A stretch of DNA of 64,000 nucleotides from positions 5,410,648 to 5,474,647 of the forward strand of contig CM073329.1 of NCBI GenBank assembly GCA_037043015.1, read 5' to 3'. The translations under genes and the position numbers were made by a program. The DNA comes from Bryum argenteum (lineage: Eukaryota; Streptophyta; Bryopsida; Bryales; Bryaceae). Of this stretch, positions 4,850-60,500 are shown piece by piece; within the stretch, counting starts at the first letter, position 1, and every line of letters begins with the position of its first letter. The notes below the pieces were generated by a model that ran no database searches, had not been told where the DNA came from, and saw only the letters and a list, made by a program, of their open reading frames with translations.

Positions 4850-5704
4850 TTTTTAATTTTTTCTATATAGTGTGAGGTTTGGGTTAGGAACAAAAAAAAA
4901 AATCAAAGTTATACACAAAAAAACAAAAAAAATACAAGAGGGAAAATAATTATATATAACTTAATTAAATCTACAAATTTAGTTACTTTACAATCCACTA
5001 AATATTTTTTTTAGAGAATTAAAAGTACAAATAATTAAAGAAAAATATTAGTAAAAAGAAAAAACAAAATAATAAAAAGAACCAACAATTCAACAATGAA
5101 CAACCAACAATTTTTCAAACCGCTATGCACAGAACAAGTGTAAGGAGCAATTATTTGCGATGAAAGAGCAAGGTTAGATCTAGCAAAACTAAACAGTAAA
5201 AAATGTGGATTGTGAAGGAGTGCCCGGAGTTGCCAAATGTGTCCAGAGCGCGATGCCGAAGTGTTGACACTGTCTCGGTAGCAGGTTGCGGCGATGTCTC
5301 GATAGTAGGTTTCGGCACAGTCTCGGTAGCAGGTTTGTCGATCGATGAGATCACCGCGCCGGCGCCCTATGGTGCTCTACAGCTCCCGATGTGCTTAGCT
5401 AATCTCTTGTTTATCACTAAAAACATGAGTGAGAGACAATTGTCAACAAAGAATGAGAATAGACAGAAAGAGGTCGGAATGCTGTGCTACCTGATCTGTA
5501 GAAGTAGAAATTTATATAAATCAGATTGACCGTTATAGAACGGTTAGAAACGGCTCTCCGAAGTCTCGATGTTCTCCATTGACGAAAAGTGAATGACTGG
5601 AGAAAAACAAAAATGAATGTCTCTTCACAATACAAAGCATCCATTCGATTTTCATCATCGAACATCCTTGCGAATGGGGTCACCCGACGCTCCTCCGGTG
5701 ATAG
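4850..5704. other. Gene-free stretch upstream of the NB-LRR gene
   Basis: AT-rich to about 5150, then GC-richer. Positions about 5271-5338 hold three diverged copies of a 24-nt direct repeat (gtctcggtagcaggtt...). The open frame across it reads as a Val/Ser/Gly repeat and resembles no known protein. I see no TIR, coiled-coil or RPW8 coding sequence here that could supply the missing N-terminus of the next gene. Confidence 0.4.
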
Positions 5705-36384: not shown

Positions 36385-36675
36385 CTAAATAAGGCCAAAG
36401 ACAGGAAAATAAGCAAGGGTATTTTGTCCGCTTTGTAGAGTGGAGTGAAAAATAGGATTATCTCCATATATATTTGAGGAATTGCGGTCTTCGAGAGTCT
36501 TATACATTGCCTTCAGTACAATATGATCAATTGGGTTCCCAATAGGGTTTTTTTGACGTGCAATAAGAAAGAAAGTGCCAAAGCTTGAGCATGCTCTTAT
36601 TGCATCCCAAGATGAAAGCAAAACTGGGATTGAGAGAAGAGGTATTTTCAAATATACTTTTAAGAAATTTTGCAT
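36385..36675 (-). other. Open frame conserved between array units
   Basis: A 96-codon frame with core GNPIDHIVLKAMYKTLEDRN ending FHSTLQSGQNTLAYFP. Related frames on the same strand occur at 45342-45563, 56027-56296 and 60055-60333, with cores such as KDHIVPKAMYK, SSNIYGDNSIFHSTLQSGLN. No match to a known domain. It could be a relic of a mobile-element or organellar gene, or chance. Confidence 0.3.
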
Positions 36676-36713
36676 AGATTTTTGAAATATAAAACTAAAA
36701 AATGAAAAATCCT

Positions 36714-36785
36714 AGCGGAAAAATGGACTTGAAACCTAAACCTGAGCCTTGGCAAGGCTATACTCTACTATTAAGCTATTTCCGC
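36714..36785 (-). pseudogene. tRNA-Gly(GCC)-like sequence, array unit 1
   Basis: 72 nt on the minus strand. The acceptor stem GCGGAAA/TTTCCGC is perfect. The anticodon loop TTGCCAA gives anticodon GCC. The T-loop is TTCAAGT. The T-stem (TAGGT/CCATT) and D-stem closing pair are damaged, so it is probably not functional. The sequence is of bacterial/plant-mitochondrial tRNA-Gly type, unlike cytosolic plant tRNA-Gly. Confidence 0.8.
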
Positions 36786-38639
36786 TAGCTCCAACAAGGA
36801 TCACTATAAATTAGTGCTACAAGAGTTTCTCGAGGGAGGGGTAAAGAGCCCCCCAAATTTTTAATGTATAAGCTTAAAATGCCAAATAGTATGCTCCTAC
36901 TATAAATTGGGGCCTTAGACCCCATTTTTGAATCAAAATCATCAAAAATGGTCGTCAAGGGTCCAAATCAAAAATCACAAGAATTTTGAAGAAAAAATGC
37001 CATTGGCTGAAACGTTGGTAGCAATTATTTACACGCACCCTCCAACAAGACAAAACAATGAGGAAAAAGTAAGAATGCCTTTATTACACTTATCGAATCT
37101 ATTTACTTATTAAAGTTTGATAGTTTGGCTATACTTAGGATTCTTGTTTCTAATATAAAACAGACTTAATTTGTCCAAAAGTAACTACACGGTAGAAGAT
37201 ACCACAATAAAAATATTAACTAAAGTAGTTAATTTCTATTTATAGCAAATGAGTACACAACCGACACTCAAAAGCATTGTCACTTCCAAATCTTTCAAAA
37301 CATCTTCTCAATACAGAACTACCGAGGACATTTTCCTTGAAAATATCCCTTTATTAAGTTGACTATTTCCACACCGCTTTTATTTTAAATGTATACAAGT
37401 ACACAACCCAATCTATCATTGCACAGAATCAGAGATAAGCAGAGATCTGATACCACATTCTGTGTTGTCAACATAATCACTGACTTTGTTCTACAATTGT
37501 TAGAATATGGTCCCTTTCAGTAAATTACAGTCCATTTTATTTGAAAATTAAATTATATTACTTTTGAACCTAGGGTGTATTTTATTCTTACAATACTTTG
37601 ACTCTCAGTTTGGCAAATAATAAATCTTATTTTTCGATATCAAAAATCTGATTTTTTTTCGGTTTAGAGAAGACATATTGGTACTCAATTGTGGCAAAAA
37701 TAGGATTGAAAATGAAAATTTAGTTAATTATTTGGCCTTGGGGTATGGGATTATGGCAATATTGTGGTTATGTCCTAATATTTGAGTAGATGGGACAATG
37801 GTAGATGGTATAAAAATTGTAAAGGGATGTTGTGACAAAGTCTACAAATAATATGAGGCGTGATATGAAAGATGTGAGATACAAGTTGGTACTAATAGAG
37901 TGGGATCATCTCATTTCCTCATGTAAGTTGTTCTTGAATTCTAACTTGTAAATGCATATGACTAATTTTAGCCAATACGACAAATTTTGAAATAAAGTGT
38001 CATGGATGAAAATGAAGGGTGGCTCTTTAGATCTCAATTGTCAGAATAATCTTGGCTCAAAGAATACTTTGGAATGGTGAAAACTACCAAGAAGTTTCAA
38101 AAGGGAAAGTAGTCCAAATCTATACCTCATTCACTCAAATCTATGCCTTATCTTAAAAACACGTCTAATTTGGTCAAGATTTCTACACTAAAATTGGACG
38201 TTAACCGGAATCATCTCAAAAGATAAATTTGAAATTCAAGAGTGGATGAAGGAGAGATGTCACATACAAATCATCATTTCCAAATACTTGTCTATAGATT
38301 TGCAATGATCCAAATACTTGTCTTTATATTTGCAATGATATTTCATGAAAAAAGTGAAACATCATTGCAAAACTAAAGACAAGTATTTGGATTAAAAAGC
38401 TTCCAACTAGAAAGCTCTTAGGAATTAACTTAAGATCACACTTGTGTAAAAATGTACATGAATAATAATTTTTTGATCTAAAATAAGGGAATGGAACAAT
38501 GAAACATGCCAAATATTTTTTTAAATACAAAGTAATGAAATTGTCACAAGAATTCATGCCATTAATTTTAACTTTTTGAATTTAGATAAGGCTTTCATCA
38601 TAAGAAAATAGATTTCTTTAAAAATTAAACCGAAAAATA

Positions 38640-38731
38640 TCCATCAAAAAGGAAGTTTGAATGGAAAGATATGGCTCTTCAAAGTTGGGTTGCCATCTAA
38701 AATAATCAAATTTAACATCTGGTGCGTTTAG
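38640..38731 (-). mobile_element. Relic end of the 2845-type TTAA element
   Basis: In reverse complement this reads CCCCTAAACGCACC ... ATGGCAACCCAACTTTGAAG, matching the left part of the element at 2845-3451. A second relic is at about 62240-62372, where a 50-bp tandem duplication (gagaagatatggctctttga at 62251 and 62301) is included. The TTAA flank is mutated in both. Confidence 0.5.
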
Positions 38732-38768
38732 GGGATAGTGAATGGATCCCTTATTAAGAACAAGATAC

Positions 38769-38796
38769 AATATATATATATATATATATATATATT
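38769..38796. repeat. (AT)n microsatellite
   Basis: Uninterrupted TA dinucleotides. Similar runs lie at 44120-44147 and 44802-44848. Confidence 0.95.
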
Positions 38797-41700
38797 AGTT
38801 GAAGACAAAATGATTCCAAAAATTGAATGTAAGCTACATTTTCTATCATGATGAGTTAACAATTAATCATAAAATCAATTTAAATAAGACTTTCTTTCAA
38901 GCTATCTATATCTCAAATCGATCTGACATGTCATGTAATAAAAAGGTGCATGTTGACTGTATAAGACCTTGTAGTAATTCTTATGTAGCATACTTTAAAA
39001 CAAACACCTGGGAGAGTACATTCACATTACATTTGGACCATGTAAGTCTTGAATTGTATTCCATACGCACATTTGATTCCTATTGGTGTAAGTGTTGCAA
39101 TTGGAGCCACTCACTAGAGGCCCTTATATAGTGTGCCTACACTTTTGATTCTTTTATTTTGGAACCCATGAGTCAATTGTAGAAAATTCCATTAGTTTGT
39201 GAAATAGGGCTTTATGCTATATATTTATTAAGGAAGTCACTAATTGGATTTTAAGAACCTAAACAACTACAAATTAATAATAGACCTTTAGTTAAGTGCC
39301 TCTAAATTTGGGGCTTTTAAGCCTTGTTTTGGATGAAAGTCAATGATTTATTTAACTTGTTGTGTTTATCATAGAACAAGTTGTAAAGCTTCAAATCTAT
39401 AAAAGTACACAACCCTATCGCTGCACATATAGGCAGAGATATAATACTACATTCTGCATTGTACTCATTATTGCTGCACATATAGGCACAGATATGATAC
39501 TACATTTTGCGTTGTACACATGATAACTGACTTTGTTCTACAAGTTGTTTGAAAATGGTTTCCTTGTAATAAATTTGATTCTTGTTGGATATATTATCCA
39601 TTTTGTATGCAAATTAATTCCGGTACTTTTGAGCCCATGGTGTATTTTATTCTTACAATACTTGGTCTCACAAAATAAGTCGTATTTTTGGGTGTTTAAA
39701 ATGTGAATTTTTGTTTAGTTTAGAGTAGTCATATTGGTACTCAAAGAAATGGAATTAAAGAAAAAATAGGTTTGAAAATGCAAAATGAGTTGATTATTTG
39801 GCCAAGATATTGTGGATTTGTGGTTATGTCCTAATCTTTGAACTTTAACCCGTAAATGAAAATGGCTATTTTAACCCAAAAAACACAAACTTGAAAAGAA
39901 AGTGTCATGGGTGAAAATGAAGGCAAGTTGTGTAGATCTCAACCGTACAAACTTATAATTGACTTATTGTGCACTATTTTGAAAAATTGATTGAGTCATG
40001 AGGCTCCATAGATTGCAAGATCATAACATTCTAGTCATGCGTTCATTTGATCATACGCTCATTTGATCCCTATTGGAGTAAGTGTTGCGATTGGAGCCGC
40101 TCATTAGTGGCGCTTATATAGTGGGCCCAAACTTTTCATTCTTTTCATTTGGAACCAACGAGCCAATTTCTGAAAATTCCAGTAGTTTGTAAAATAGGGC
40201 AGCAGGCTATATATTTATTAAAGAAGTCACTTCTTGGATTTTAATGACATGTACAACTAGAAATTAAGAAAAAAAAATCTTTAATTAGGTGCCTCTAATT
40301 TGGGGCTTCTAAGCCTCATCATGGATTGAACTCAATGATATTTTTTTAATTGGTTGTGCCTATCTTAGAATTGGTTGAAAAGTTAAAACTAATACAATGT
40401 CAAGCATGTTACTTTTTTGGGTCAACACCTACTGCAACTTGTGTCTTTTTGAGTTACTTGAAAAGAATTCAAGTCCATTTTTGACATTTTGATTGATGTC
40501 TTGTAGTTTGTTTTTGAGATATTAGTAGAACTTAAGCTAGGATAGTCCCTAAATTGAGACCATAATTCATATAGCCACCAATAAATTCCTCTCCTGTAAA
40601 TATCAAACTCAATATTGTATTCACATCCCTAGAACCATATATGGTAAACAAAAGCTTGCTTTCAGAATATAATATTTCCATTTCAAAAATATGATGGCAT
40701 CTTCTATGGTAGTAACACCTACTCTTATGAATTTGAGGAACTTTGCCTATGTCCAATGGAATATATTGCATGTTAGCAATTTTTTTTAAAGATTGAATCC
40801 AAGGAGGATAATTATTATGTCATTCTTTATAGATACATTTAAAATCATCAATGATTACCAAGTTTGGACACCTATTTATGTACATAGCCCCTTTTAAAGA
40901 GCGTACACACTGGCATGTTCCCTTTATGTGACTTGTGCAAATCAAGGCTTTTATTGAATTTGACGAGCCTTTGCGTTGCCTAAGGCATGTAGTATTTTGT
41001 GTTAGATTTTTTAGTGATAGAATCATTTGCATAGAGGAAGAACTCCATGCCTCTTGGGACTGGCATGAATAGTGTGTCCTCTTCACATGTTCTTATATAC
41101 AACCTTGAAGGTCATCATACAGATGGTGAATTATGTGTGTACTATGATAGGCAACGCTTTGCTTTAGAGTGAGAGTGGGTGCATATAAAAGAAACAATGA
41201 AAGACAATGAGTGCATCTATAAAATTTCCTACCATCATGCATTACTTGAGCTACATGTTGACTAGACGCACATTTCATAGTAATAATTTCAAGCGCACGT
41301 TAAAATCTTATAATTATTAGCACTAATTGAAACTTTCTCTTGGACTTAAGAGTTACTACTGATTGGGTTTAGAAAGTTTTTTCTTCAAGACTCTCTCAAG
41401 GCTTATAGATTACCTTGCAATGGAATTCTCTTTCATTTGCCTTGAAAAACTAAATAATAAGAAATCTCGTAACTAAACGTGTATGCATAGATATTGTAGT
41501 AGATTATGTGTAGTACACACAATCACTCCCTTTGTTCCACTTATTATGGATTTATGGACTTAAATGGATTTAAAAAATGGATTTAAATGTTCTATGTATT
41601 GGGGCCTTAATTAATAACCATTGACACACCCTTATTGAGTAATTATGTTTTTTTATTCTTTTAGTTACATACTGGAAGTGGCACAAATAGGCTTTGTTAT

Positions 41701-43689
41701 TTGATTAACGTTCATGAATGAATCAAACTTATTTTCCTAAATGTGTAGTCTACCTACCAATTTTTATCTTACATTTATATTCTTCAAAATAATAATAATA
41801 ATAATAATAAAATACTATGTTCATGGATTTCTATGTGTGGTCGTTTGGAGGTCAATGTAAAGGTGTTTCGCGAGGGGTTAAAATGTGTTTTTTTACATGA
41901 AGCACATTTCAACACCTAAATGTACCCAATTATAGAAGAATGAGTTGCATGTGGACAATATATATGAGACCTTGTAGCTATTGAATATGTTTGTGTGACT
42001 ACTTTCAAAAAAAACAACCACAAGCATATTAGGTGATTTTTATAATATTTGAAACATGTAAGTCCTAGCTGTATCCTATGTGTACACTTGATTTATATTA
42101 AATCAAGTGCTTGAACTATGGTTGCTAATTAAATTAACTTAGCTTGGTAGAATCTCAATTTCAAGTTCTTTAATTGTAAAGTCATACTTAAAACCATCAA
42201 TGTCAGTAAATAGTACTGATAAATCAAATCTTGCCTTCGAAAATCTTCGAATATTTCTATTTCAAAATTATCATGACGTATGTTGAATTGATTTGATATA
42301 TAGATACTTAAAAGCAAGTTTGTGCTAGATGTTGACCATGACTAGATCTTATATTCATCATTTCAAATTATAGCCATAACAACCTAAAGTGCATAACAAT
42401 TTGTGCATGTTTAGATATATTTAATGTGACATGTAATCATGTAGGTGAAGTCATCATTACTAACTTTGTTTTGTTCTTTTCCTTTTTAGAGAACACTAAC
42501 GACTTTATTCTACATAAGGTACGTCTTGTAATCATTTGTGATAAAGATGAGGGCTTACAATCATTGACTTTATTCTACAAACATGATCTCATGTATTGGA
42601 AATAAATCTTATTTCATTTATCTAGATTTATTAAATTGTCTAGACTTTAGTATTGTAAGAGTAATAAGGTATAACTGAAAATAAGATTTTGATTGAAATT
42701 ATAGTTGCATATATTTGCAAAAGTATGATAACAATATAGTTCAGTTTTGTATATGTGAAATTTGATGTTGTAAAATAATTCAATGTAGATTATTTTATAT
42801 TTAGATCATTTTCCTTTAGATCATAACTACATGATGCTTACAACAAGGATACTTTTTCTTAAAATATTTTACTTTCTCTTTCACACGCTTCTCATGGGAT
42901 TTGGATATAAAATACTCTCTTTCATATGCAATTTTAATACTTGCATGTTTGTTGAATCCTGTCTTAAATCGACAGAATTGTATCTTTAACATCATTCTCA
43001 TCTTTGGTTTGTTATGTGCATATCTCACTTTGTCAAATGTAAATAGATGGAAAATATTTTATAAGTTGGATATTTATTTTTATAAATGAATTACAAAATA
43101 TAAGATTACACAAGCTTTTAACACTCTACTGTCCAACCTAAAGACGAGTCAAAAGTATTTCACCCTCCTACTTCAAACAGTATTAACACTTGAAAAAAAA
43201 CACCAATTCCAAACTTGAATTCAACCTTATTATTCAACATAGAATTGAATACTTAACTCAAGATGGTCGCAAATTATATTCCACCAAATAGGTCATATAC
43301 TTTTTTATTGCTTCCGATTTTGGTATCATTAAAACTCTCAAAAACTTTGCCACAATGAAAGAACCATTAAAATTAATCAGAAATCAAACTCAAGAATTCA
43401 CATTGAAATGACATAAAATTTCTAAGTTCTAGAAATACATTGCACAAAACACTCCCATCAACATGTATCAATACACAATCACGCTTATTAAAACACATCA
43501 ATATTATGTCCACAATAGATTTCAACAATCAACCTTAGAAACAATTTTACTAAAAATATATATTACACAATAGAATATGATCATAATAGTGAATTAATTA
43601 CTTAGCAATCAAGTGACGGCAATAAATTCTATTGAACAAACTCATCGAGAACAGATCCAATAGGCAATCATCATGTGTCCTATTGAAAC

Positions 43690-44118
43690 ACAACAATATA
43701 ATGTACAAAATAGATATCAACAATCAAACCTAGAAACTCTAGATTTTTAAAAATTTATATTTACATAGTCCTATCTTTACAATTCATCATCACTTGCTTA
43801 TCCAGACATACTAGTAAATTCTATTCGACAAATCCATCACAAAGGTTTCAATAGTCAAATCATCAAATGTACCAATCAAACACAACAATATAATGTACAT
43901 AATAGATATTGATAGTCAATCATAGAAACTCTAGTAATCTAAAACTTTTTAATTACGCAGAACGATCCTTACATTCCATCATCACTTGCTTATTCAAGAC
44001 ACAATAGTAAATTCTATACGACAATTACATTGTCAAGGTTTCAATAATCAATCATCTTATGCATTATGGAAACAAAACAACATAATAGACATAATAGATA
44101 TGAAGAATCAATATTAGT

Positions 44119-44149
<31 letters not shown>

Positions 44150-44160
44150 GAACACAATAT
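43690..44160 (+). repeat. ~190-200 bp tandem monomers within an array unit
   Basis: Monomers begin with a cacaacaatataatgtacat-like motif at about 43690, 43881 and 44083. They contain ttccatcatcacttgctta and caaatacatcataaaggttt-like blocks. Equivalent runs start near 48645, 54740 and 58940. Divergence between neighbouring monomers is substantial. Confidence 0.7.
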
Positions 44161-44795
44161 GATGTGAATAGTCAATCATCACTTGCTTAATAAAACTTAA
44201 TGTAAAAATGTAAAATATATATTAATAATAGTTCTCAATAGTCAATTCTCATTTGTACAATAACAATCAATCTCTCAACGGTTCGTCTCAACTATCAAAA
44301 CACAGTCAAAACCAGTGCATCCAACCACAACAAGGTCAACTAAGGCACGATTGGTCAACTTCTAGAAAGCATTGATAAAAGTGTTCAACATTCTCTACAA
44401 CAGAATTGCGACCTCAGTGGTCAATCATCATTCAAATGTATGAAACTGTCAATCCTCTACGACGTCAGTCAACTACTCACTGTAGTCGGTATGGTCGATA
44501 ACGAACATGATTGACGGCCTCAGTGGTCAATCATCATTTGAATGCATGAAATTGTCTATCCTCTACAACATCAGTCAACTCTAAACCCTAAATCCTAAAT
44601 TATAGATTCCAACATAAAAAATAAAATTGAATTTCAACAACGGACTTAGGAGGTACAATTCCTTGAAGAGCATGCAATTCTATACAACATGTACATCATA
44701 AAGGTTTCAATAATCAATCGTCATATGCATTATTGATACACAACAATATAATAGACATAATAGATATCAATACTCAATCTTAGTTTTATATTTAC

Positions 44796-44834
<39 letters not shown>

Positions 44835-45671
44835 TATACACACACACAAAATGATCTGAATAGTCAATCATTACTTGCTGAATAAAATTCAATGTAAACT
44901 ATCTATTAATAACAAGTCATAATAGTCAAATCTCATTTGTACAATAATAGTCAATATCTCAATTGTTTGTCTCAACTATCAACAATAAGGTCAACTTATG
45001 CACGCATGGTCAACTTACGGAAAGCGTTGGTATAACTCTTCAACATTCTCTAAAACAAAATTGCAGCCTCAGTGGTCAATCATCATTCGAATGTATGAAA
45101 CTGTCAATACTCTACGAGGTCAATTACCCCTTAATTCTAAACGCTAAATCGTGGATTCCAACCTAAAAAATAAAATTGAAATCCAATAATGGATTTAGGA
45201 GGTACAACTCTTTGAAGACCATGCAATTCTTGGGTTCACTTTTTGGATCTACGGACACTTAGGAATTACCTTCTCTCGGTTTACACCACATCCAAAAACC
45301 ACAGCTTCTTAACAATCGGACCCTCAAGAATGAGCCATGACCTAAATAAGGCCAAAGATGGGAAAATAAGCAAGGGTATTAAGTCCGCTTTGTAGTGTGG
45401 AGTGAAAAATAAAGTTATCTCCATATACATTTGAGGAATTGCAGTCTTCGACAATCTTATACATTGCCTTCGGTACAATATGATCTTTTAGGTTACCTAT
45501 AGGGGTCTTTTTGACTTGCAACAAGATAGAAAGTGCCAAAACCCAAGCACACACTAATTGCATACCAAGATGAAAGCAAAATTAGGATTGAGAGAAGAGG
45601 TATTTTCAAATATATTTTTAGGAGATTTTGCATAGATTTCTAAAGAATAGAACTAAAAAATGAAAACCCCG

Positions 45672-45737
45672 AGCGGATAAAGGGACTTGAAACTTCAACC
45701 TTAGCAAGGCTATACTCTACCGTTAAGCTATTCCCAC
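45672..45737 (-). pseudogene. tRNA-Gly-like sequence, array unit 2 (degenerate)
   Basis: Recognisable by position and by the D-arm and TTCAAGTCCC T-arm. The anticodon loop is mutated to TTGCTAA, and the 5' acceptor strand (AGTGGGAA) no longer pairs with the 3' strand. A clear pseudogene. Confidence 0.75.
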
Positions 45738-48700
45738 TAGCTCCAACAAGGATCAGTGTATATCTTTGCCACAAGGGTTTCTCGGGGGAGGGGTAAAGAG
45801 CCCCTCAAAAGTTCAATGTATAAGCTTAAAATGCCAAAAGTATGCTCCTCCTGAAACTTGGGGCCCTAGACTCATTCTTGAATCAAAATTATCAAAAACG
45901 GCCGTTGAGAGGTCCAAATCAAAAATCACAAGGATTTTGAAGAAAAGATTCCATCGGCTGATGAGGCCTTAGAAATGCTGGTAGCACTCATTTACAGGCA
46001 CCCCTCCAAAAAGACCTAACAATGTTAAAAAAAGTAGGGAGCCCTTTATTACACTTATCAAATCTAGATTCTTGATAAAATTTATTAGTTTGGCTATACT
46101 TAGGATTCGTATGTCTAATATAAAACAAACCTTATTTATCCAAAAGTAACTACACTATAGAAGACACCACAATAAAAATATTAACCAAAGTAGTCATTTT
46201 CTATTTAAAGCAAATGAGTACACAACCGACACTCAAAAGCATTGTCACTTTCAAATCTTTCACAACATCCTCTCAATATAGTACGACTGAGGACTTTTTC
46301 CTTGGGAATATCCCTTTATTAAGTTGACTATTTCCACACCGCTTTTATTCTAAATGTATACAAGTACACAACCCTATCTATCACCGCGCATATGGGCACA
46401 GATATTATACTACATTCTGCGTTGTACACATAATCACTATATTATACTACATTCTGCGTTGTACATATAATCACTGATTTCGTTCTACAATTGTCAGAAA
46501 ATGATCCTGTTTTAGTAAATTTGTTTCCATTAATAGGCAATGGTAGGCTTTCTTGTTGAATAAACAATCCATATTGTACCTTTGAGTCCAGGGTGTATTT
46601 TATTCTTACAATACTTTGATCCTCAGTTTTGCAAAAAATAAGCCCTCTTTTTGGGTATCAAAAATCTGATTTTTTTATTATTTTTTGTTTGGAGGAAGTC
46701 ATATTGGTACTCAATCGTGGCAAATATTGGTTTGAAAATGCAAAGTTAGTTAATTATTTGGCCATGGAGTATGGGGTATAATAATATTGTGGTTAAGTCC
46801 TTCTATTTTTTGATTACATAGATTACATAGGACAAAGGTAGATGATATAAAAAGTGTAATTAGATGTTGTGACAAAGTCTAAAAACAATATGGCACATTA
46901 TATGAAAGATGTAAGCTTGTTGTACCAATTGTAAGGAAGATTTTACCACCGCGAAGTTGTTTACCTTCTTTTAAAAACCGCCCTTGTACAAAAAGGTATT
47001 CTTGAGCAAAAAACATCTTGGCTCAGAGAATAGGGTTGCAATGGTGAAAACTACCAAAAAGTTTAGAAATGAGAAAGTAGTCCAAAACTATACCTCTTTC
47101 ACTCAAATCTATGCCTTACCTTCAAAACACCTCTAATCTGGTGAAGATTTCTACACTAAACTAGACTTTAACCGGAATCCATCCCAAAATATAAGAGTGG
47201 ATGAAGGAGAATTCACCTTAAAATCATCCATTCTTTTACTTGACGAACCTAGTTTACATGTTCTAAACATGGTTTGTGCTAGTTGTTGACTAGATCTTAT
47301 ATTTATCAATTCAAATTGTAACCATAAAAATCTAAAGTGAATAACAATTTGTGCATGTTAAGATATTTTTGATGTGACATGTAATCATGTAGGTGAAGTC
47401 ATGATTACTAACTCTATTTTGTTCTTTTCCTTTTTAGAGAACACTAATGACTTTATTCTACATAAGGTACGTCTTGTAATCATTTGTGATAAAGATGAGG
47501 GCTTACAATCATTGACTTTATTCTACAAACATGATTTAATGTATTGGAAATAAATCTTATTTCTTTAATTTTAGATTTATTGAATTGTCTTGACTTAGTT
47601 TGACATTGTAAGAGTGAAAGGTATAACTGAGAATAAGACCTTGATTGAAAATTATAGCTGCATATATTTGCAAAAGTATAAAAACAATATAGTTTAGTTT
47701 TGTATATGTGAAATATGATGTTGTAAAATAGTTCAATGTGGCTTATTATGGATTTTTATATTTACATCATTTCCCCCTACATAATAACTTCATGATGCTT
47801 ACAACAAGGTTACATTTTCTTAAAAATTTCACTTTGTCTTTCAGACGCTTCTCATGGGGCTTGGATATAACATACTCTCTTTCATATACAATTTTTATAC
47901 TTGCATGTTTGTTAAATCATGTCTTAACTCCACAAAAAATGTATTTTTAACATCATTCTCATATATGGTTTTTTATATGGATATTTCACTTCTTGCAAAT
48001 GTTAATTGATGAAAAATATTGTATAAGTTGGATTTTCATGTCTATAAATCATGAATTACAATTTACAAGATTACACAAGCTTTTAATACTCTACTATCTA
48101 ACCCAGAGACAAGTCAGAAGTATTTCACCCTCCTAGTATCAACACTTGAAAAAAGACACTAGTTCCAAGCTTGACTCCAACCTTCTTATTCAGTACAGAC
48201 TTAAATACTAAACTGACAATGGTTGCAAATTATATTCCACCAAATAGGTCATATACTTTTTTATTGCTTCCGATTTTGGTATTATTATTAAAACTCTCAA
48301 AAAATTTGCCTCAATGAAGGAACCATTTAAGTTAATCAAAGATCACACTCAAAAATGCACATCTAAATGACATAAAATTTCCAAGTTCTAGAAATACATT
48401 GCACAAAACAATCCCATCAATAGGTATCAATACACAATCATTAAAACACATCAATATTATGTACACAATAAATTTCAGCAATCAATCTTAGAAGCGTTTT
48501 TGCTAAAAGTATATATTACTCAATACAATACAATCATAATAGTCAATCGTTACTTGTTTATAAAAAAACGACAATAAATTCTATTCTACAAACTCATCAA
48601 AAACTGATCCAATTGGCAATTATAATGTTTATTCTTGAAACACAACAATATAATGTACACAATAGATTTCAACAATCAACCTAAGAAATGTTTTTACGAA

Positions 48701-50102
48701 AAATATATATTACACAAAACGATACAATCATAATAGTCAATCATTACTTGCTTATGAAGAGACGGCAAAAAATTCTATTTTACAAACTCATCGAGAATAC
48801 ATCCGATAGGCATTCGTCATGTGTCTTATTGAAACACAACAATATAATGTACAAAATATATATCAGCAATCAATCCTAGAAACTCTAGATTTCTAAAAAT
48901 TTATATTTATATAGTTCGATTCTTACAATCCATCATCACTTGCTTATCCAAACCTAATAGTAAATTCTATTCCACAAATCCATCAAAAAGGTTTCAATAG
49001 TCAATCATCATAAGTATCATTGAAACACAACAATATAATGTACATAATAGATATCAATAGTCAATCATAGAAACTCTAGTTTTCTAAAACTTCTTAATTA
49101 CAGAGAACGATCTTCACATTCCATCATTACTTGCTCATCCAAGACACAATATTATATTCTATACCACAAATACATCATAAAGGTTTCAATGATCAATCAT
49201 CATATGCATTATTGAAACACAACAACATATTACACATAATAGATATCAAGAATCAATCTTACTTTTTTTATCTGTTAAAAAATATATATTATACAATATG
49301 ATGTGAATAGTCAATCATCACTTGTTTAGTAAAACTTAATGTAAAATATCTATTAATAACAAGTCTCAATAGTCAATTCTCATTTGTACAATAACAATCA
49401 ACTGTTCGCCTCAAACTCTCAACTATTAGTAAAAACTTGTGCATTGATTTCAATAAGAACAAGGTCTACTACTGCACGCTTGGTCTACTTCTCGAAAGCG
49501 TCAATATAACTATTTAACATTCTCTACAACAGAATTGCGGCCTTGGAGGTCAATCATCATTCGAGTTCATGAAACTGTCAATCCTCTACGACATTAGTCA
49601 ATGACTAACTACTAGAGTTGGTATGCGTCAGTAGAACATGATTGACGGCCTCAGTGGTCAATCATCATTTGAATGCATGAAACTCTCAATCCACTACGAC
49701 GTCAGTTTACTCTAAACCCTTAACGCTAAATCCTCCGATGACGCTTTGCGTTCTGCTGGGGCCTCGGGCAGTAATCCAACTCCCGCCAACTCATTAACCT
49801 CAAAAGTAATATTGAAATCTAACAATGGATTTAGGAGGTACAAATACTTGAAGACCATGCAATTTTTGGGTTCACTTATTGGAACCACAAACACTTAGGG
49901 GTTACCTTCTTCTGGTTTACACCACATCCAAAGACCATAACTTCTAAACAATCAGACTCTCAAGGATGAGCCATGACCTAAATAAGGCCAAAGACGAGAA
50001 AATAAGCAGTGGTATTAAGTCCGCTTTGTAGTGTCGAGAGAAAAATAGAGTTATCTCCATATATATTTGAGGAATTGAGGCCTTCGAGGGTCTTATACAT
50101 TG

Positions 50103-50358
50103 ATCCCCAATTCCGTTAAAATGGTGTTATGCCGCTAAAATGGCATACCTTAACTTTATGAACTGTAGTTTAAAAACGATGTGATATAACAGAAATTGAA
50201 GGTGATATTATGGAAAATGAGTGACAATGTATATAAAGGAGTGATATTATAAAAAAATTGTGATATAACATAATACAGCACTCCTTGTGAGCGCATATGT
50301 AAGATTTGGTGTGACAAAATGGCACATGGCATAGTGCCATTTTAACGGAATTGAGGTT
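50103..50358. mobile_element. AACCTCAATTCCGT-type MITE in array unit 3
   Basis: 256 bp. The left end ATCCCCAATTCCGTTAAAAT and right end finishing TTTTAACGGAATTGAGGTT are inverted repeats that continue into ggtgttatgcc/ggcatagtgcc. A 4-bp duplication ATTG flanks it (50099-50102 and 50359-50362). The other array units are uninterrupted at this point, so the empty site is known. It belongs with the 155-bp element in ABP1 intron 2. Confidence 0.85.
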
Positions 50359-50555
50359 ATTGCCTTTTGTACAATATGATCTTTTGAATTCCCTATTGAG
50401 GTTTATTGACGCTCAACAAGAAAGAAAGTGCCAAAGCCCGATCAGACTCTTATTGCATACCAAGATGAAAGCAAAACTGGGAGAGAGAAGAGGTATTTTC
50501 AAATATATTTTTAGAATTTTTGCATAGATTTTTTATGAACAAAACTTATAACCCA

Positions 50556-50627
50556 AGAGGAAAAAGGGACTTGAACCCTCAACTTCAACCTTGGCAAGGC
50601 TATACTCTACCACTAAGCGATTTCCGC
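50556..50627 (-). tRNA. tRNA-Gly(GCC)-like, best-preserved copy, array unit 3
   Basis: 72 nt. Acceptor GCGGAAA/TTTCCTC has one mismatch. The D-arm GCTTAGTGGTAGAGT carries a conserved GG-equivalent. The anticodon stem-loop is TAGCC-TTGCCAA-GGTTG with GCC anticodon. The T-arm GAGGG-TTCAAGT-CCCTT pairs fully, with the pol III box B-like sequence GGTTCAAGTCC. It closely resembles my recollection of plant mitochondrial trnG-GCC. A genomic CCA is absent. Transcription in the nucleus is possible but not shown. It may equally be a well-preserved pseudogene. Confidence 0.65.
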
Positions 50628-51457
50628 TAGCTCCAACAAGGATCAATGTAAATCAATGCTACGAGGGTTTATCGGGGGAGGGGTAAAGAGTCCTACAATT
50701 TCTTAATGTTTAAGCTTAAAGTGCCAAAAAGTATGCTCCTATTGTAACTTGGGGCCCGAGACTCCATTTTTGAATCAAAATTATCAAAAACGGCCGCTAG
50801 GGAGTCCAATCATAAATCACAAGGATTTTGAAGAAAAAATCTCATTGGCTGATGGGGCTCTGAGAAACGCTAGTAGCACTCCTTTACAAGCGCCCCTCCA
50901 ACAAGACAAAACAATGTAAAAAAAAGTAAGAAGCCCTTTATTACACTCATTAGATCTATGTTCTTGATAAAGTTTAATAGTTTGGCTATACTTAGGATTC
51001 TTATTTCTAATATAGAACAAACCTTATTTATCCAAAAGTAACTTTACCGTAGAAGATACCACAATCAAAGAAATCAACTAAAGTAGGCATTCTCTATTCA
51101 TAGCAGTGTAGTACACAACGGAGAAAAGCAATCTCACTTTCAAATCTTTCACAAGATCGGCTCTATATAGTACTATTAAGACTTTTTCCTTGGAAATATC
51201 CCTTTTACTAAGTTAACTATTTCTACACCGCTTTTATTTGAAATGTATATAAGTACCCAACTCTATCTGTCATTGCACAGATAGACAGAGATATGATACC
51301 GTCTACATAATCCCTGACCTCATTCCACAATTGTCAGAAAGAAAATGGTCCCCTTCTTCTGTCAATTTGATTCTGGTTGAAAATGCAATCCATATTGTTT
51401 GCAGATTACTTTCAGTACTATTGAGCCCACGCTATATTTTATTCTTACAATACTTTG

Positions 51458-51612
51458 ATGGGTGTCACAAAAAAGTCTTATCGATGGGTGTCAAAAATAA
51501 GTCTTATTGATGGGTGTCAAAAATAAGTCTTATTGATGCGTGTCAAAAATAAGTCTTATTGATGGGTGTCAAAAATAAGTCTTATTGATGGGTGTCCAAA
51601 AATTTGATTTTT
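51458..51612. repeat. 26-bp tandem repeat, five copies plus a partial
   Basis: The unit gatgggtgtcaaaaataagt plus cttatt recurs from 51458. The equivalent place in unit 4 (57615-57688) has two to three copies, and other units have one, so the expansion is local to these units. Confidence 0.9.
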
Positions 51613-54600
51613 TTTTTTAGTCTAGAGAAGTTATATTGGTACTTCGAGTAATTGGATTTGTAGAAAAAATAGGTTTGTAAATGCAAAATTTGTTAATTAT
51701 TTGGTTTAGAGGAGTATGGTAATATTGTGGTTATGTTCTTCTAATATTTGAGTAGAAAGGACAAATGTAGATGGTATAAAAAATGTAAAGGGATGTTGTG
51801 ACAAATTCCACAAATAATATGACACGTGATATGAAAGATGTGAGACACAAGTTGGTATTAATAGAGTGGGTATCTCTTTGTGTGAGAAAAAAGATAAGAG
51901 AAGAAGAATTTTAAAAAATAAATAAAAATAAAAATAAAAAAGAAAAAAGAAGAGAAAAGAAGTCAATTTTGACATTTTGTTTCATGTGTTCTAGTGGAAC
52001 AATTGCACCGGTAAACAAAAGCTAGCTTTGCGAATATAATATTTCTATTTCTAAACTATGACGGCATCTTCTATGGTAGTAACACCTATTCTAATGAATT
52101 TAAGGAATTATGCCTATTTCCTATGGAATATATAGCATGTTAGCAATTTTGTTTATAGTTGAACTCAAGAAGAGTAATAATAATGTAATTCTTTATGGAT
52201 ATATTTAAAATTTTCAATGTTTACTAGGTTTGGACACCTATTTATGTAGATAGCTCTTTTCAAAGAGCGTGCACAATGGCATGTTCCCTTCATGTGACTT
52301 GTGCCAAACAAGCCTTTTATTGCATTTGATGAGCCTTTGTCTTGCCTATGGCATGTAGTATTTTGTGTTATATGTTTTTAGTGATAGAATTATTTGCATA
52401 GAAGAAGAACCGGAGGCCTATTGGGGCTGGCATGAATAGTGTGTCTTCTCTACATGTTCTTAAATATAAGCTTGAAGATCATCATACACATGGTGACATT
52501 ATGTGTGTACTATGATTGGCGATGCTTTGGTTGAGACTGGGTGCATTAGAAAGAAACATTAAAAGATAGTAAGTTTATTTATAAATTTACACTTAGAAAT
52601 TTTCCTACTATAATGCGTCGATTGAGCTACATCTTGACTAGACATATATTTCAGCGTAATACGTTTAATCGCACATTAAAATCTCATAATTATTAGCGCC
52701 AATTGAAACTTTCTCCTGGACTTAAGAGTAACTATTGATTTGGTTCAGAAAGCTTTTTCTTCAAAACTCCCTGAGAGCATATACATTACCTTGCAATGGA
52801 ATTTCTTTCATTCGCCTACAAAAAAACATATAAAAAAATCTCATAACTACACGTGTATGCATAGGTATTGTAGTAGATTTTGAGTAGTACACATAATCAG
52901 TAGCGTAACTTATTCTAAAAAAATGGGTTTCAATGTTCTATGTATTCTATTTTTATATATTTGTCAAAAGTTGATATTCTTTCCTAAGTTGATATTCTTT
53001 CAGAAGTAGATATTCTTTCAGAAGATTTGATCCAGCTTTGGGATTTTACTAGCATGCCTATTGCCTCTAGCCAAATTCATATTCATATAGAGTACGTGCA
53101 ATGAGGCTTTTCTCATACATTGGGTGATTTTTGAAATTTGTTCTAAAAAAAAATTAAAAACTTGCTTGCAACTAACTAACTTGCAATAGGGCCTTACTTG
53201 ATAGCCATTGACAAGCCCGCATTGAGTAATTAGGATTATTTTTTTAGTTACATACTATAAGTGGCACGAACAAGCTTTGTTATTTGATTCTATGTTTAGA
53301 TCTCCAAACATATATCTAAACATGCACAAATCGTTATGGTTAAAAGCAAGTTTGTGCTATATGTTGACTAGATCTAATATTTATTATTTCAAATTGTAAT
53401 CATTAAAATCTAAAGTGCATAACAATTTGTGCATGTTTAGATATCTTTAATGTAACATGTAATCATGTAGGTGAAGTCATCATTACTAACTTTGTTTTAT
53501 TATTTCCCTTTCTGGAGAACACTAATGGCTTCATTCTACACAAGGTATGTCTTGTAACCATTTGTGATAAAGATGAGGGCTTACAATTATTGACTTTATT
53601 CTACAAACATGATTTAACGTACTGAAAATATATTTTATTTCCTTAATTTAGATTTATTGAATTGTCTTGACTTAGTTTGGCACTATAAGAGTGAAAAGGT
53701 ATTACTTAAAATATAACTTAAAATAAGACACTGATTGAAAATTATAGCTGCATGTATTTGCTAGAGTATAATAACAATATAGTTTAGTTTTGTATATGTG
53801 AAATTTGATGTTGTAAAATAATTCAATGTAGATTATTATGGATTTTTATATTTACATCAATTTCCTTTGGATCATAACTCCATGATGCTTACAACAAGGT
53901 TACTTTCTTAAAAAATTCACTTTCTCCTTCATATGCTTCTCATGGTGTTTGGATATAAAATACTCTCGTTCAAATGCGATTTTTATACTTCCATGTTTGT
54001 TAAATCATGTCTTACTTCCACGAAAATGTATTTTTAACATGAATCTCATCTATAGTTTGTTATATGAATATTTCACTTTTCCAAAAGTAAATGGATGAAA
54101 AAATATCCTATGAGTTGGATTTTGATGTCAATAAATCATGAATTACAATTTATAAGATTACACAAGCTTCTAACACTATACAATCTAGCCTAAACACATA
54201 TCAAGAAGTATTTCACCCTCCTACTTGAATAAGTATCAACACTTGAAAAGCAACACCAATTCCAAACTTGAATCAAACCTTCTTATTCAACACAAACTTA
54301 AATACTAAACTGAATATGGTCCCAAATTATATTTCACCAAATAGGTCATATACTTGTTTATTGCTTCCGACTTTAGTATCATGAAAACTCTCAAAACCTA
54401 TGCCACAATGAAGGAACCATTTAAATTAATCAAAAATCAAACTAAAAAATGCAAATCTAAATGACTTTAAATTTCTAAGTTCTAGAAATACATTGCACAA
54501 TACGCTCTCATCAACATGTGTCAATACACAATCATGCTTATTAAAACACATCAATATAATGTACACAATAGATTTCTACAATCAACCTTAGAGACGTTTT

Positions 54601-56026
54601 TACTAAAAGTATATATTACACAATACAATTTGATCATAATAGTCAATCGTTACTTGCTTATCAAGAGATGGGAATTAAGTCTTTTGTACAAACTCATCGA
54701 GAACACATCCGATAGGCAATCATCATGTGTCTGCTTGAAACACAACAATAATGTACACAATATATATCAACAATCAATCCTAGAAACTCTAGATTTCTAA
54801 AACCATATATTTACATAGTCCAATACTTCCAATCCATCATCGCTTCCTTATTTACATATAATGGTAAATTCTATTCGACAAATCCATCAGAAAGGTTTCA
54901 ATGTCAATCATCATATGTAACATTGAAACACAACAATATAATGTACATAACAAATATCAATAATTAATCATAGAAACTCTAGTTTTCTAAAACTTTTTAA
55001 TTACACTCAATGATCCTTACATTCCATCATCACTTGCTTATAGAAGACACAATAGTAAATCCTATACGACAAATACATCTGACAGTTTTCAATAGTCAAT
55101 CATCAAATATACCATTGAAACACAACAATATAATGTACATAATAGATATCAATAATCAATTATAGAAACTCTAGTTTTCTAAAACTTTTTAATTACACAC
55201 AACAATCCTTACATTCCATCATGACTTGTTCATGCAAGAGACAATAGTAAATTCTATACGACAAATACATAAGGGTTTCAATAATCAATCACCACATGCA
55301 TTATTGAAACACAACAATAGTATATACATAATAGATATCAAGAATCAATCTTACCTTTTTCTTCTTATAAAAAATATATATTATACATTATGATGTGAAT
55401 AGTCAATCATCACTTGCTTAATAAAACTCAATATAAAATATCTATTAATAACACGTCTCAATAGTCAACTCTCATTTCTACAATAACAGTCAACTCTTTG
55501 TTTCAAACTCTCAACTATTAGTCAAAACTCATGCATTCAATAACAACAAGGTCAACTACTACACGCTTGGTCAACTTTTGGAAAGCGTCAATATAACTGT
55601 TTAACATTCTCTACAACAGAATTGCGGCCCGAGTGGTCAATCATCATTAGAGTGCATGAAACTGTCAATCCTCTGAGACGTCAGTCAACGACTCACGATC
55701 GGTATATGTCTATAAAGGACATGATTGACGGCCTCAGTGGTCAATCATCACTTGAATGCATGAAACTCACAATCCACTACGGCGTCACTTAACTCTAAAC
55801 CCTTAACGCTAAATCCTCTCATGACTCTTTGCTTTCTGCCGGGGCCTCGGGTAGTATTCCAACTCCCGCCAACTCACCAACCTAAAAAATAATATTGAAA
55901 TCTAACAATGGATTTAGGAGGTACAACTACTTGAAGACCATGCAATTTTTGGGTTCACTTATTGGAACCAGAGACACTTAGGGGTTACCTTCTCTCCATT
56001 TACACCACATCCAAAGACCACAACTT

Positions 56027-56296
56027 CTAAACAATTGGACTCTCAAGAATGAACCATGACCTAAATAAGGCCAAAGACGAGAAAATAAACAAGGGTATTA
56101 AGTCGCTATGTAGTGTGGAGTAAAAAATAGAGTTCTCTCCATATATATTTGAGGAATTGCGGCCTTTGAGAGTCTTATACATTGCCTTTTGTACAATATG
56201 ATCTTTTGAATTCCCTATTGAGGTTTTTTGACCCTCAATAAGAAAGAAAGTGCCGAAGCCCGATGAGGTTCTTATTGCATCCCAAGATGAAAGCAA
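56027..56296 (-). other. Conserved-frame relic, array unit 4
   Basis: An 89-codon frame related to 36385-36675, with core KDHIVQKAMYKTLKGRNSSN and then IYGENSIFYSTLHS. After that point the frame shifts relative to the unit 1 version, showing decay. Confidence 0.25.
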
Positions 56297-56356
56297 AACT
56301 GGGAGAGAGAAGAGGTATTTTCAAATAAATTTTTTATGAACAAAACTTTTAACCGA

Positions 56357-56399
56357 AGCGGAAAAAGGGACTTGAACCCTCAACTTCAGCCTTGGCAAG
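56357..56399 (-). pseudogene. tRNA-Gly-like 3' half, array unit 4, split by a SINE
   Basis: The 3' half (anticodon loop TTGCCAA, T-arm GAGGG-TTCAAGT-CCCTT, acceptor TTTCCGC) is intact. The 5' half is displaced beyond the SINE to about 56761-56792 and mutated (ggtagagtgtag still recognisable in reverse). Confidence 0.75.
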
Positions 56400-56401
56400 A
56401 C

Positions 56402-56433
<32 letters not shown>

Positions 56434-56760
56434 AACTCCGGTCCCTTTCTAAGGGGCCGGCGTGAATGAAGTGTCCGTTCGTAATGCTAATATCCCGATG
56501 GCCACCGGACAAGGGAACAATACTACTTCCCCCTCTCGAGGGTGGACACTATAACTACGCTAGTTTCTAGCCTAGTTACTAGTGCCTTGAAGATACTTGA
56601 CATAGTATCCCCCCAAAGGGCTTTGAGGTACCCATACAACAAGGTCCAAAGATCCCCCACAATAGTTGGGTGGACTATAGTGGTGAGCACCACGCCGGCA
56701 TGGGGAATAGAACCCACGACCTCCTCATTGGGGGCCTAAGCCCTAACCACCAAGCCCTAA
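56402..56760 (-). mobile_element. tRNA-derived SINE with (TCTA)n tail, full-length copy
   Basis: On the minus strand it starts near 56760 with pol III box A-like TTGGTGGTTAGGG and box B-like GTCGTGGGTTCTATTCC. A ~230-bp unrelated body follows, ending in a (TCTA)n tail (56402-56433). It has no coding capacity. It has landed inside the anticodon-arm region of the array's tRNA-Gly copy. Relatives: 26150-26412 and a fragment at 30958-31071. Confidence 0.8.
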
Positions 56761-59440
56761 CTACACTCTACCATGAATGGATTTTGGCTAGCTCCAACAA
56801 GGATCACTGTAAATCAATGCTACCAGGGTTTATCGGGGGCGGGGTAAAGAGTCCCCCAATTTCTTAATGTTCAAGCTAAAATGCCAAAAATTATGCTCCT
56901 ATTGTAACTCGGGGCCGGAGACTCCATTTTGAATCAAAATTATCAAAAACGGCCGTTAGGGAGTCCAATCAAGAATCATAATGATTTTGAAGAATATATC
57001 CCATTGGCTTGATGGGGCTCCGAGAATTTCTGGTAGCAATCCTTTACAAGCGCCCCTCCAACAAGACAAGACAATGTAAAAAAAAGTAAGAAGCTCTTTA
57101 TTACACTTATCAGATCTATATTATTATTAAAATTTATTAGTTTGGCTATACTTAGGATTCTTATTTCTAATATAGAACAAACCTTATTTGTCCAAAAGTA
57201 ACTGCACAGTAGAAGATACCACAATCAAAGAAATCAACTAAAGTGGGCATTCTCTATTCATAGCAATGAAGTACACAACGGAGAAAAGCAATCTCACTTT
57301 CATATCTTTCACATTATCGTCTCAATAGAGTACTACTGAGGACTTTTTTCTTAGAAATATTCCTTTATTAAGTTGACTATTTCTACACCGCCTTTATTGA
57401 AATGTATATAAGTACAACACCCTATCTGTCAATGCACAGATAGGCAGATTCCGCACAGATAGGCAGATTGACATAATCACTGTCCTTGTTCTACAATTGC
57501 CAGAAAATGGTCCCCTTCTGTCAATTTGATTCTGGTTGAAAATGCAATCCATATTGTTTGCAAATTAATTTCAGGACTTTTGAGCCCAGGCTGTATTTTA
57601 TTCTTACTATACTTTGATGAGTGTCAAAAATAAGTCTTATTGATGGGTGTCAAAATAAGTCTTATCGATGGGTGTCAAAAATTTGATGTTTTTTTTACTT
57701 TAGAGAATCTATATTGGTACTCAAAGTAATTGGATTCGTGGCAAAAATAGGTTCAAAAATGAAAAATTAGTTAATTATTTGGTCTCGAGGAGTATGGTAA
57801 TATTGTGGTTATGTCCTAATCTTTGAGTAGATAGGACAATGGGAGATGGTATAAAAAATGTAAAGGGATGTTGTGACAAAGTCCACAAATAATATGAGAC
57901 GTGATAGGAAAGAGTTGAGATACCAGTGAGAAGGTATAACCTAAAATAAGACCTTGATTAAAAACTATAGTTGTATACATATGAAAAATTATAATCAAAA
58001 TATAGTTTAGTTTTGTATATGTGCAATTTGATGTTGTAAAATATTTCAATGTGAATTCTTATGGATTTGTATATTTACATCACTTCCCTCTAGATCATAA
58101 CTCCATGATGCTTACATCAAAGTTACTTTTTGTTAAAAATTTCACGTTCTCCTTCATATGCTTCTTATAGTGTTTGCCTATAAAATACTCTCGTTCAAAT
58201 GCGATTCTTATACTTACATGTTTGTTAAATTATGTCTTATTTCCTCAAAAATGTATTTTTAACGTCATTTTTATTATGGTTTGTTATATGAATATTTCAC
58301 CTAACCAAATGTAAATAGATGTAAAGATATTGTATTAGTTGGAAATCATGAATTACAATTTGTAAGATTACACAAGCTTTTAACAGTATAACATCCAACC
58401 TTAACAGATGTCAGAAGTATTTCACCCTCCTACTTCAATAAGTATCAAGTTTTGAAAAAAACACCAATTCCAAACCTGAATGAGACCTCCTTGTTATTGA
58501 AATACTAAATTGAATATGGTTGCAAATTATATTCCACTAAATAGGTCATATACTTTTCTATTGCTTTGGATTTTGGTATCATAACAACTCTCAAAAACTT
58601 TGCCACAATGAAGGAACCATTTAAATTAATCAAAAAGCAAACTAAAAAATGCACATCTAAATGACATAAAATTTCCAAGTTCTTGAAATACATTGCATAA
58701 TACAATCCCATCAATAGATATCAATACACAATCATTACATGCTAATTAAAACACATCAAAAGAATGTACACAATAGATTTCAACAATCAACCTTGGAATT
58801 TTTTTTACTAAAAAATATATTACACAATAGGATATGATCATAATAGTCAATAGTTACTTGCTTATGAAGAGACGGCAATAAATTCTATTGCACAAACTCA
58901 TTGAAAACAGATAGGCAATCATCATGTGTCTTATTGAAACACAATAATATAATGTACACAGTAGATATCAACAATCAATCCTAGAAACTCTAGATTTCTC
59001 TAAATATATATTTACATAGTCCAATCATTACAATCCATCATCACTTGCTTATCGAGACATAATAGTAAATTCTATTCGACAAATCCATCAGAAAGGTTTC
59101 AGTAGTCAATCATCATATGCATTATTGAAACACAACAATATGATAGGCATTATAGATATCAAAAATCAATCTTAGTTTCTTTTAATCAATCATCATATGT
59201 ACCATCGAAACACAACAATATAATGTACATAATAGATATCAATAATCATTCATAGAAACTCTAGTTTTCTAAAACTTTTTAATCACATCCTTACATTCCA
59301 TCATCACTTGCTTATCAAGGACACAATAGTAAATTCTATACGACAAATACATCATAAAGGTTTCAATAATAATCAATCATCATATGCATTATTGAAACAC
59401 AATAATAGTATAGAAATAATAGATATCAAGAATCAATCTT

Positions 59441-59442
<2 letters not shown>

Positions 59443-59474
<32 letters not shown>
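59443..59474. repeat. Poly-T tract
   Basis: An uninterrupted run of T inside an array monomer. Other units have only a short ttttt at this place. Confidence 0.95.
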
Positions 59475-60054
59475 CTTCTTTTAGAAAATATATAGAGTAC
59501 AATATGATGTGAATAGTCAATCATCACTTGCTTAATAGAGCTTAATGTAAAATATTTATTAATAACACGTCTCAATAGTCAATTCTCATTTGTACAATAA
59601 CAGTCAATCTCTCAACTTGTTTGTCTCAACTATCAGAGACGTCAAAACTCGTGCATTCAATCACAATAAGGTCATGATTGGTGAACTAGTGCACGCTTGG
59701 TCAACTTTTGAAAAGCGATATAATTGTTTAACATTCTCTACAACACAATTGCGGCCTTAGTGGTCAATCATCATTTGAATGTCAATCCTCTACGACGTCA
59801 TCAACAACTAACTGCAATCGGTATGCGTCCATAAGGAACATGATTGATGGCCTCAGTAGTCAATCATCATTTCAATGCATCAAACTGTCAATCCTCTAAG
59901 ACGACCCGACGACGTCAATTAACCCTAAATCCTAAACACTAAATCCTCGATTCCAAACTAAAAAAGTAAAATTGAAATCTAACAATGGATTTAGGAGGTA
60001 CAACTCCTAGAAGACCATGTAATTTTTGGGTTCACTTTTTGGACCCACGGACAC

Positions 60055-60500
60055 TTAGGGGTTACCTTCTCTTGGTTTACACCACATCCAAAGGCCACAG
60101 CTTCTAAACAATTGGACCCTCACGGATGAGCCATGTCCTAAATAAGGCCAAAGACGAGAAAATAAGCAAGTATTAAGTCCGCTTTGTAGTGTGGAGTGAA
60201 AAATAGAATTGTCTCCGTATATATTTGAGGAATTGCGGCCTTCGAGAGTCTTATACATTTCCTTCGATACAATATGATCTTTTCGGTTCCTTATAGAGGT
60301 TTTTTTGACGCGCAACAAGGAAGAAAGTGCCAAAGCTCAAGGAGGCTCTTATTGCAGGCTCTTATTGCATACTAAGATGAAAGCAAAATTGGGATGGAGA
60401 GAAGTAGTATTTTCAAGTAAACTTTTAAGAATTTTTGCATAAGTTTTTGAAGAATATAACTAAAAATAGAAAAACCCAAGCATATAGCTCCAACAAGGAT
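60055..60500 (-). other. Array unit 5 block with deleted tRNA
   Basis: Contains the conserved-frame relic (core KDHIVSKEMYKTLEGRNSSN). At about 60470-60490 the tRNA-Gly sequence is almost wholly deleted: the flanks aaaacccaag and tagctccaacaag are joined directly. This gives an independent end-point of decay for the unit. Confidence 0.5.

Follow-up and report, generated by a model that had tools for sequence, protein, structure and literature searches.

The window, a 64,000-nucleotide stretch of the Bryum argenteum genome (assembly GCA_037043015.1, contig CM073329.1, here C9:5410648-5474647), contains an array of repeat units in which a mitochondrial-type transfer RNA (tRNA) gene, trnG-GCC encoding tRNA-Gly(GCC), recurs on the minus strand at one fixed place. 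The genome searched comprises 258.8 Mb in 25 contigs. The array sets in at approximately 34.7 kb and unit-like sequence extends out of the window as far as approximately 90 kb (window coordinates). Eight units reach the tRNA position: U1–U7 on C9 and one on contig C3. Named by tRNA site, the units of the window are U1 (36714), U2 (45672), U3 (50556), U4 (56357) and U5 (approximately 60482, where the tRNA is absent). U6 and U7 lie beyond it, with tRNAs at C9:5481141 (locus L031) and C9:5491946 (locus L032), and the C3 unit occupies approximately 28394.7-28399.4 kb of its contig, with the tRNA at C3:28396425. Partial copies that stop short of the tRNA position, for example those at 88.7-90.2 kb and at C2:9460 kb, are left out of the eight.

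Successive tRNA sites along C9 are 4-11 kb apart, and the units sit within a 16.98-Mb contig with dispersed or array-specific repeats on each side. The repeat unit is non-coding, and none of the three frames in the array that run for 100 or more amino acids between stops (36385-36711, 38814-39131 and 54486-54800) has a Pfam match at 0.001. Within several units a repeat of roughly 192 bp forms a small array of its own (43488-44112, 48440-49258, 54541-55350 and 58746-59442), and a diverged copy is found on C2 at 9460 kb.

State of the tRNA copies

The original prediction placed the same tRNA at 36714, 45672, 50556 and 56357, on the minus strand and at the same position in the unit, and this is borne out by Rfam, ARAGORN and alignments. 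Two window copies exceed the Rfam RF00005 gathering score of 29: 50556-50627 in U3, the top-scoring copy in the window at 52.3 bits, and 36714-36785 in U1, at 45.3 bits. The U2 copy (45672-45737) is slightly under the threshold at 28.2 bits. Outside the window, the scores are 66.3 bits in U7, 42.4 in the C3 unit and 40.6 in U6, and the intact trnG-GCC of the loci on contigs C4 and C2 described below scores 68.8 bits. The U3 copy keeps 20 of 21 pairs, in line with the earlier statement that it retains nearly all pairing. When the intervals were checked with ARAGORN, as had been proposed, this copy was called as tRNA-Gly(gcc) at 50555-50628, which is the sole call among the window copies.

The remaining copies of the window are damaged in different ways. 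The U1 pseudogene has five substitutions, and 4 of its 21 pairs are broken; the U2 pseudogene has a 6-bp deletion (positions 47-52) and an altered anticodon. In U4 the tRNA is in two parts, a 3' part at 56357-56403 (94% identical to locus L037, over a match spanning 56351-56403) and a 5' part from 56761 to approximately 56788 (83% over 56761-56801 to L037 541-501), both on the minus strand and separated by an insertion at 56404-56760; this split tRNA is not listed by Rfam at E up to 1. A deletion had been placed near 60470, and in U5 the tRNA is indeed gone at approximately 60482 between matching flanks (60433-60495, minus strand; 60433-60481 matches L037 631-583, the remainder being defined by alignment). 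The claim that every array unit carries the tRNA therefore needs correction: the five units of the window hold three unsplit copies, one split copy and one unit with none. Fold energies of single copies separated good from bad copies poorly and were not used.

Mitochondrial source of the tRNA

The fragment that carries the tRNA matches, at 83-95%, two large insertions of mitochondrial DNA (mtDNA), one on C4 (L036, L037) and one on C2 (L038, L039), in which trnR-ACG and trnG-GCC stand beside nad2-, nad4- and nad5-type frames. The Pfam frames of the C4 tRNA locus are ATP-synt_A, Ribosomal_S7, Ribosom_S12_S23, two of Proton_antipo_M (named nad2 and nad4 in this analysis) and NADH5_C. Its tRNAs are tRNA-Glu, tRNA-Arg(ACG) and tRNA-Gly(GCC), and group II introns are present too. 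Further C4 loci have TatC, Cytochrom_C_asm and COX1 frames. The C4 and C2 loci are 99.65% identical across 9675 bp and are interpreted as mtDNA copied recently into the nucleus, an assembly error being another possible source.

The tRNA is mitochondrial in origin, because the spacers on each side of it match mtDNA loci; the original prediction of a mitochondrial type thus holds. The intact tRNA, compared with the whole genome at E up to 0.001, matches ten places (all ten candidates scored): six in this array, one in the C3 unit and three in other mtDNA insertions. The C4 matches to 36390-36672 initially looked like nuclear repeats, until their gene content showed that they are mtDNA. An ATP9-like frame suspected by eye in L045 has no Pfam match at 1e-5 and is not claimed.

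Near the C4 contig end, mtDNA of the ccm region forms an inverted repeat of about 9.7 kb (L042, C4:36001-46000, and L048, C4:3001-13000; 96.5% identical). The same region is partly present again at C4:5.355-5.365 Mb.

A mosaic of four mitochondrial fragments

Several mtDNA pieces make up the captured DNA, a mosaic structure that goes beyond the original prediction. Four fragments, A-B-C-D, follow one another in identical order in all eight units. Their matches on C4 lie at approximately 5357.7 kb (A), 5382.3 kb (B), 5364.4 kb (C) and 5326.5 kb (D), in a reference that is itself nuclear and may be rearranged. In U1, fragment A (36391-36454) is 87.5% identical over 64 bp to L043 2726-2664, near a TatC frame at L043 1502-2239. 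Fragment B (36462-36574) is 81% identical to L045 6271-6386, in the locus with the COX1 frame (L045 3043-3639). Fragment C (36573-36671) comes from a ccmF-type region and is 88% identical to L042 5218-5316 and L043 9340-9438; a cytochrome c assembly domain is found in the neighboring frame, L042 5350-6342. Fragment D, on the minus strand, has a tRNA side (36667-36798, 90% to L037 632-501) with trnG-GCC and spacers, which overlaps C by 5 bp, and a trnR side (37041-37129) from the trnR-trnG spacer, 88% identical to L037 510-421 over a match spanning 37040-37129.

The other units of the window match mtDNA loci in the same way. Fragments A, B and C occupy 45348-45629 in U2, 49984-50521 in U3, 56067-56336 in U4 and 60144-60436 in U5, and the outer part of fragment D is found on the minus strand at 46004-46083, 50896-50986, 57056-57135 and 60753-60836, respectively, the last being 86% identical to L037 510-427. 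In U3, fragment B is interrupted by a 256-bp insertion (50103-50358), and fragment C is shortened in U5 and in the C3 unit. As the mtDNA reference is partial, further mtDNA fragments may be present. The C9 stretches 1-34500 and 87000-104000 (window coordinates) have no match to this reference at E up to 0.001.

The joints between fragments are blunt or show short microhomology, for which the overlap of matches is an indirect measure. A and B are separated by 7 bp in seven of eight units and by 2 bp in U7. At the B/C joint the matches share 2 bp in six units, with losses in U5 and C3, and at the C/D joint they share 4-9 bp in seven, with a loss there in U4; by pairwise alignment, the C/D overlap is 5-6 bp in U1 and U6. 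The nuclear insertion of mtDNA (NUMT) has nuclear DNA on both sides.

A stretch of 57-59 bp in U3 (49735-49793) and U4 (55821-55877) is 98% and 93% like L045 7021-7079 on C4, respectively. It was not found in the other units and may stem from a further, more recent insertion of organellar or mobile DNA.

Inserted elements and the order of events

Fragment D is interrupted in all eight units by an element of 242-260 bp that resembles a miniature inverted-repeat transposable element (MITE). In U1 this element, delimited by alignment, is 242 bp long (36799-37040) and is flanked by the 9-bp target duplication TCCAACAAG at 36790-36798 and 37041-37049. On the tRNA strand the word reads CTTGTTGGA, with point changes in some units. 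The C4 mtDNA locus and L040, an independent NUMT on C2, have one copy of this word, and the units have two. The element itself is in part repetitive, with matches at many other sites across the genome. A 9-bp target duplication together with terminal inverted repeats is what we take to define a Mutator-type MITE, and here the terminal repeats are weak, with 14-19 matches over the 26-base ends.

As the target word is single in mtDNA, and fragment order and inserted element are common to all eight units, mtDNA capture came before the MITE-like insertion and both preceded amplification. The original suggestion that organellar DNA was captured by the ancestor of the array is upheld by these shared features.

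The insertion that splits the U4 tRNA (minus strand, delimited by alignment) is a repeat, some 340 bp long, that carries a TAGA/TATC tail. It has 39 further near-full-length places at 95-97% identity among the 40 scored of 2702 candidates. From its tail and its tRNA-like 5' end, it is probably related to short interspersed nuclear elements (SINEs). Its edges show no long target duplication. This break in the U4 copy had not been anticipated by the original prediction.

U5 groups with the tRNA-bearing C3 unit (tree support 0.977). In the tree from downstream sequence U5 is again beside C3 (0.901), and in the upstream tree it is with the tRNA-bearing U6 (0.960). Trees from different stretches are thus partly discordant, as expected with exchange between units. 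The tRNA was deleted from U5 and not simply never gained there, because fragments A, B and C and the two ends of D are still present in U5, which clusters with a tRNA-bearing unit.

Neutral decay or retention of the tRNA

These observations are, with high probability, explained by a complex NUMT carrying trnG-GCC that was amplified with the repeat unit and has since decayed neutrally and separately in each copy. At least four short mtDNA fragments, one with trnG-GCC and parts of both its spacers, would have been joined end to end and inserted into a nuclear repeat unit without coding content, where they probably filled a double-strand break under repair, with end joining as the likely mechanism of capture. 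The MITE-like element then landed in the trnG fragment, after which the unit was amplified in tandem on C9, probably by unequal exchange; one copy is on C3. Each tRNA copy would have drifted since as a neutral, presumably untranscribed pseudogene, acquiring point changes in the tRNA-bearing units and unit-specific damage: the 6-bp loss in U2, the SINE-like insertion in U4 and the full deletion in U5.

Several points weigh against this account of the tRNA and its capture. The mtDNA reference consists of nuclear copies that may be rearranged, so that the original spacing of A-D is not proven, and fragment A is only 64 bp long. Only partial unit copies, and no clear empty site lacking the NUMT, were found: the diverged partial unit at C2:9460 kb stops short of the NUMT position, and the partial copy at C9 73247 (window coordinates; L031 9247) begins at the outer limit of fragment D (resembling 37123 onward) with a different part of the unit as its left neighbor, so that it is not a plain empty site. 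In addition, some measures suggest that the tRNA is better kept than its surroundings. The tRNA differs from the mtDNA reference at 36 of 498 positions, versus 100 of 567 in the 5' spacer (seven units, without U5), and of all regions compared among units the tRNA has the smallest pairwise mean (0.133 versus 0.142-0.216). The comparison with mtDNA is weak, as the spacer in mtDNA may have changed after capture while mitochondria hold their tRNA constant, although constraint on the nuclear copies could also give this result; on the other hand, the independent NUMT L040 differs from mtDNA at only 3 of 82 spacer and 4 of 72 tRNA positions. Finally, the U7 copy keeps 21 of 21 pairs, with a score near that of the intact gene.

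Together with the finding that six of the seven C9 units reaching the position retain at least part of the tRNA, the good state of U7 and the two distance measures are what favor the idea that the tRNA functions as a nuclear gene, or as an internal RNA polymerase III (pol III) promoter serving the unit, and is selectively kept in most units. This idea, part of which was raised in the original prediction, is nonetheless improbable, as the substitution pattern shows little sign of such selection. On a tree built from flanking columns for the seven tRNA-bearing units (U5 was excluded for want of a tRNA and L040 as a separate NUMT), the tRNA has 28 changes over 66 full columns, or 0.424 per site, versus 0.528 in the flanks. 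This slowdown is not significant: 24% of flank blocks of equal length are as slow or slower (P = 0.24). Stem changes are not avoided either, since 20 of 29 distinct changes relative to mtDNA fall in stems (42 of 72 sites), with about 17 expected. In a simulation of pair breaking that assumed 60% transitions, the number of broken pairs exceeds the random expectation in U1, U6 and C3; U2, U3 and U4 show no clear difference; and U7 breaks none, with 1.45 expected (P = 0.16). Furthermore, all seven tRNA-bearing units have at least one change relative to mtDNA in positions 8-18 or 52-62, which we take to be the putative pol III A-box and B-box regions, and some of these changes may be tolerated. 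One unit without the tRNA and one with a split tRNA both persist. A rate near that of the flanks, stems that are not spared and box changes in every tRNA-bearing unit argue for neutral pseudogenes and make a working tRNA or promoter role unlikely, as far as the substitution record can tell. There is also a small chance that the better-kept copies, U6 and U7, still yield a nuclear-encoded mitochondrial-type tRNA-Gly or fragments of it; if so, an amplified NUMT would have turned into a source of small RNA.

Two further explanations concern the origin of the tRNA, and both are very hard to sustain. SINE heads typically take the form of a tRNA at a constant position within a repeat, and a SINE-like element is present inside U4; the tRNA could on these grounds be a cytosolic tRNA-Gly that has diverged, or a SINE head of tRNA origin, with nothing organellar about it. 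This is refuted by the spacers on both sides, which match mtDNA loci. All ten genome matches to the intact tRNA are, moreover, mtDNA insertions or array units, and mtDNA has a single copy of the site that the MITE-like element targeted. Alternatively, mtDNA could have inserted separately into each unit, or the tRNA could have been gained later, with U5 representing the state before insertion, and the existence of another NUMT from the same mtDNA region (L040) lends this some credibility. Separate insertion is contradicted by the shared joints, namely the identical four-fragment order and inserted element in all eight units. A late gain, for its part, does not fit the fragments retained by U5 or its grouping with C3. 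A single, amplified and decaying NUMT accordingly remains the preferred explanation.

Relation to known systems

Complex NUMTs are already known as a kind of event, and what is unusual here is the clarity of the history. In the part of the literature covered, judged by titles and the openings of abstracts, no published account of this case was found. In one study of complex plant organelle insertions (PMC6215612), fragments from different places are reported at one nuclear site with 1-7 bp of microhomology or blunt joints, and such joints are given there as a mark of insertion by end joining. The Bryum insertion resembles these in that several organelle fragments are joined at one nuclear site; it differs in that it was later amplified in a tandem non-coding array and broken by further mobile elements. 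In moringa, according to a second report, a fraction of complete plastid-derived nuclear tRNA genes is expressed (PMC11110229). As with those genes, an organelle tRNA was here carried in with organelle DNA, but the array copies are mitochondrial and variably damaged.

The C4 locus also shows the nad2/trnR-ACG and nad4/nad5 neighborhoods that are named as spacers in three liverworts in a third paper (PMC3187804). In those liverworts, trnR-UCU and trnY are found within a repeat of the nad2/trnR-ACG spacer; in contrast, Rfam lists neither of these in the corresponding spacer of the C4 locus.

The array thus offers an ordered fossil record of capture, mobile-element insertion, amplification and separate decay, preserved in eight copies whose relationships are largely known. 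Such a record may be of use for gauging the decay of an organellar tRNA inside a nucleus. It also calls for caution, as software for tRNA annotation will report some of these relics as genes. Views of tRNA function and of array function are unchanged.

Other features of the window

At 38307-38393, within the array, a miRNA model matches on both strands below its gathering score; this is probably an AT-rich palindrome. Outside the array, a 305-residue frame on the minus strand (3935-4852) has an ISXO2/IS1595-like transposase domain (PF12762, 4.7e-23). On the plus strand, the stretch 5852-8426 holds an NB-ARC disease-resistance-type gene with a winged-helix domain (5852-7120) and, after it, a frame with weak leucine-rich-repeat matches (7752-8426). 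Pfam identifies a FAD_binding_4 frame at 18201-18554, which we presume to be MurB-like and which, with the mitochondrial gene neighborhoods above, would fit a moss host. Perfect tandem repeats are found at 21632-21786 (5 x 31 bp) and 31368-31501 (3 x 44 bp).

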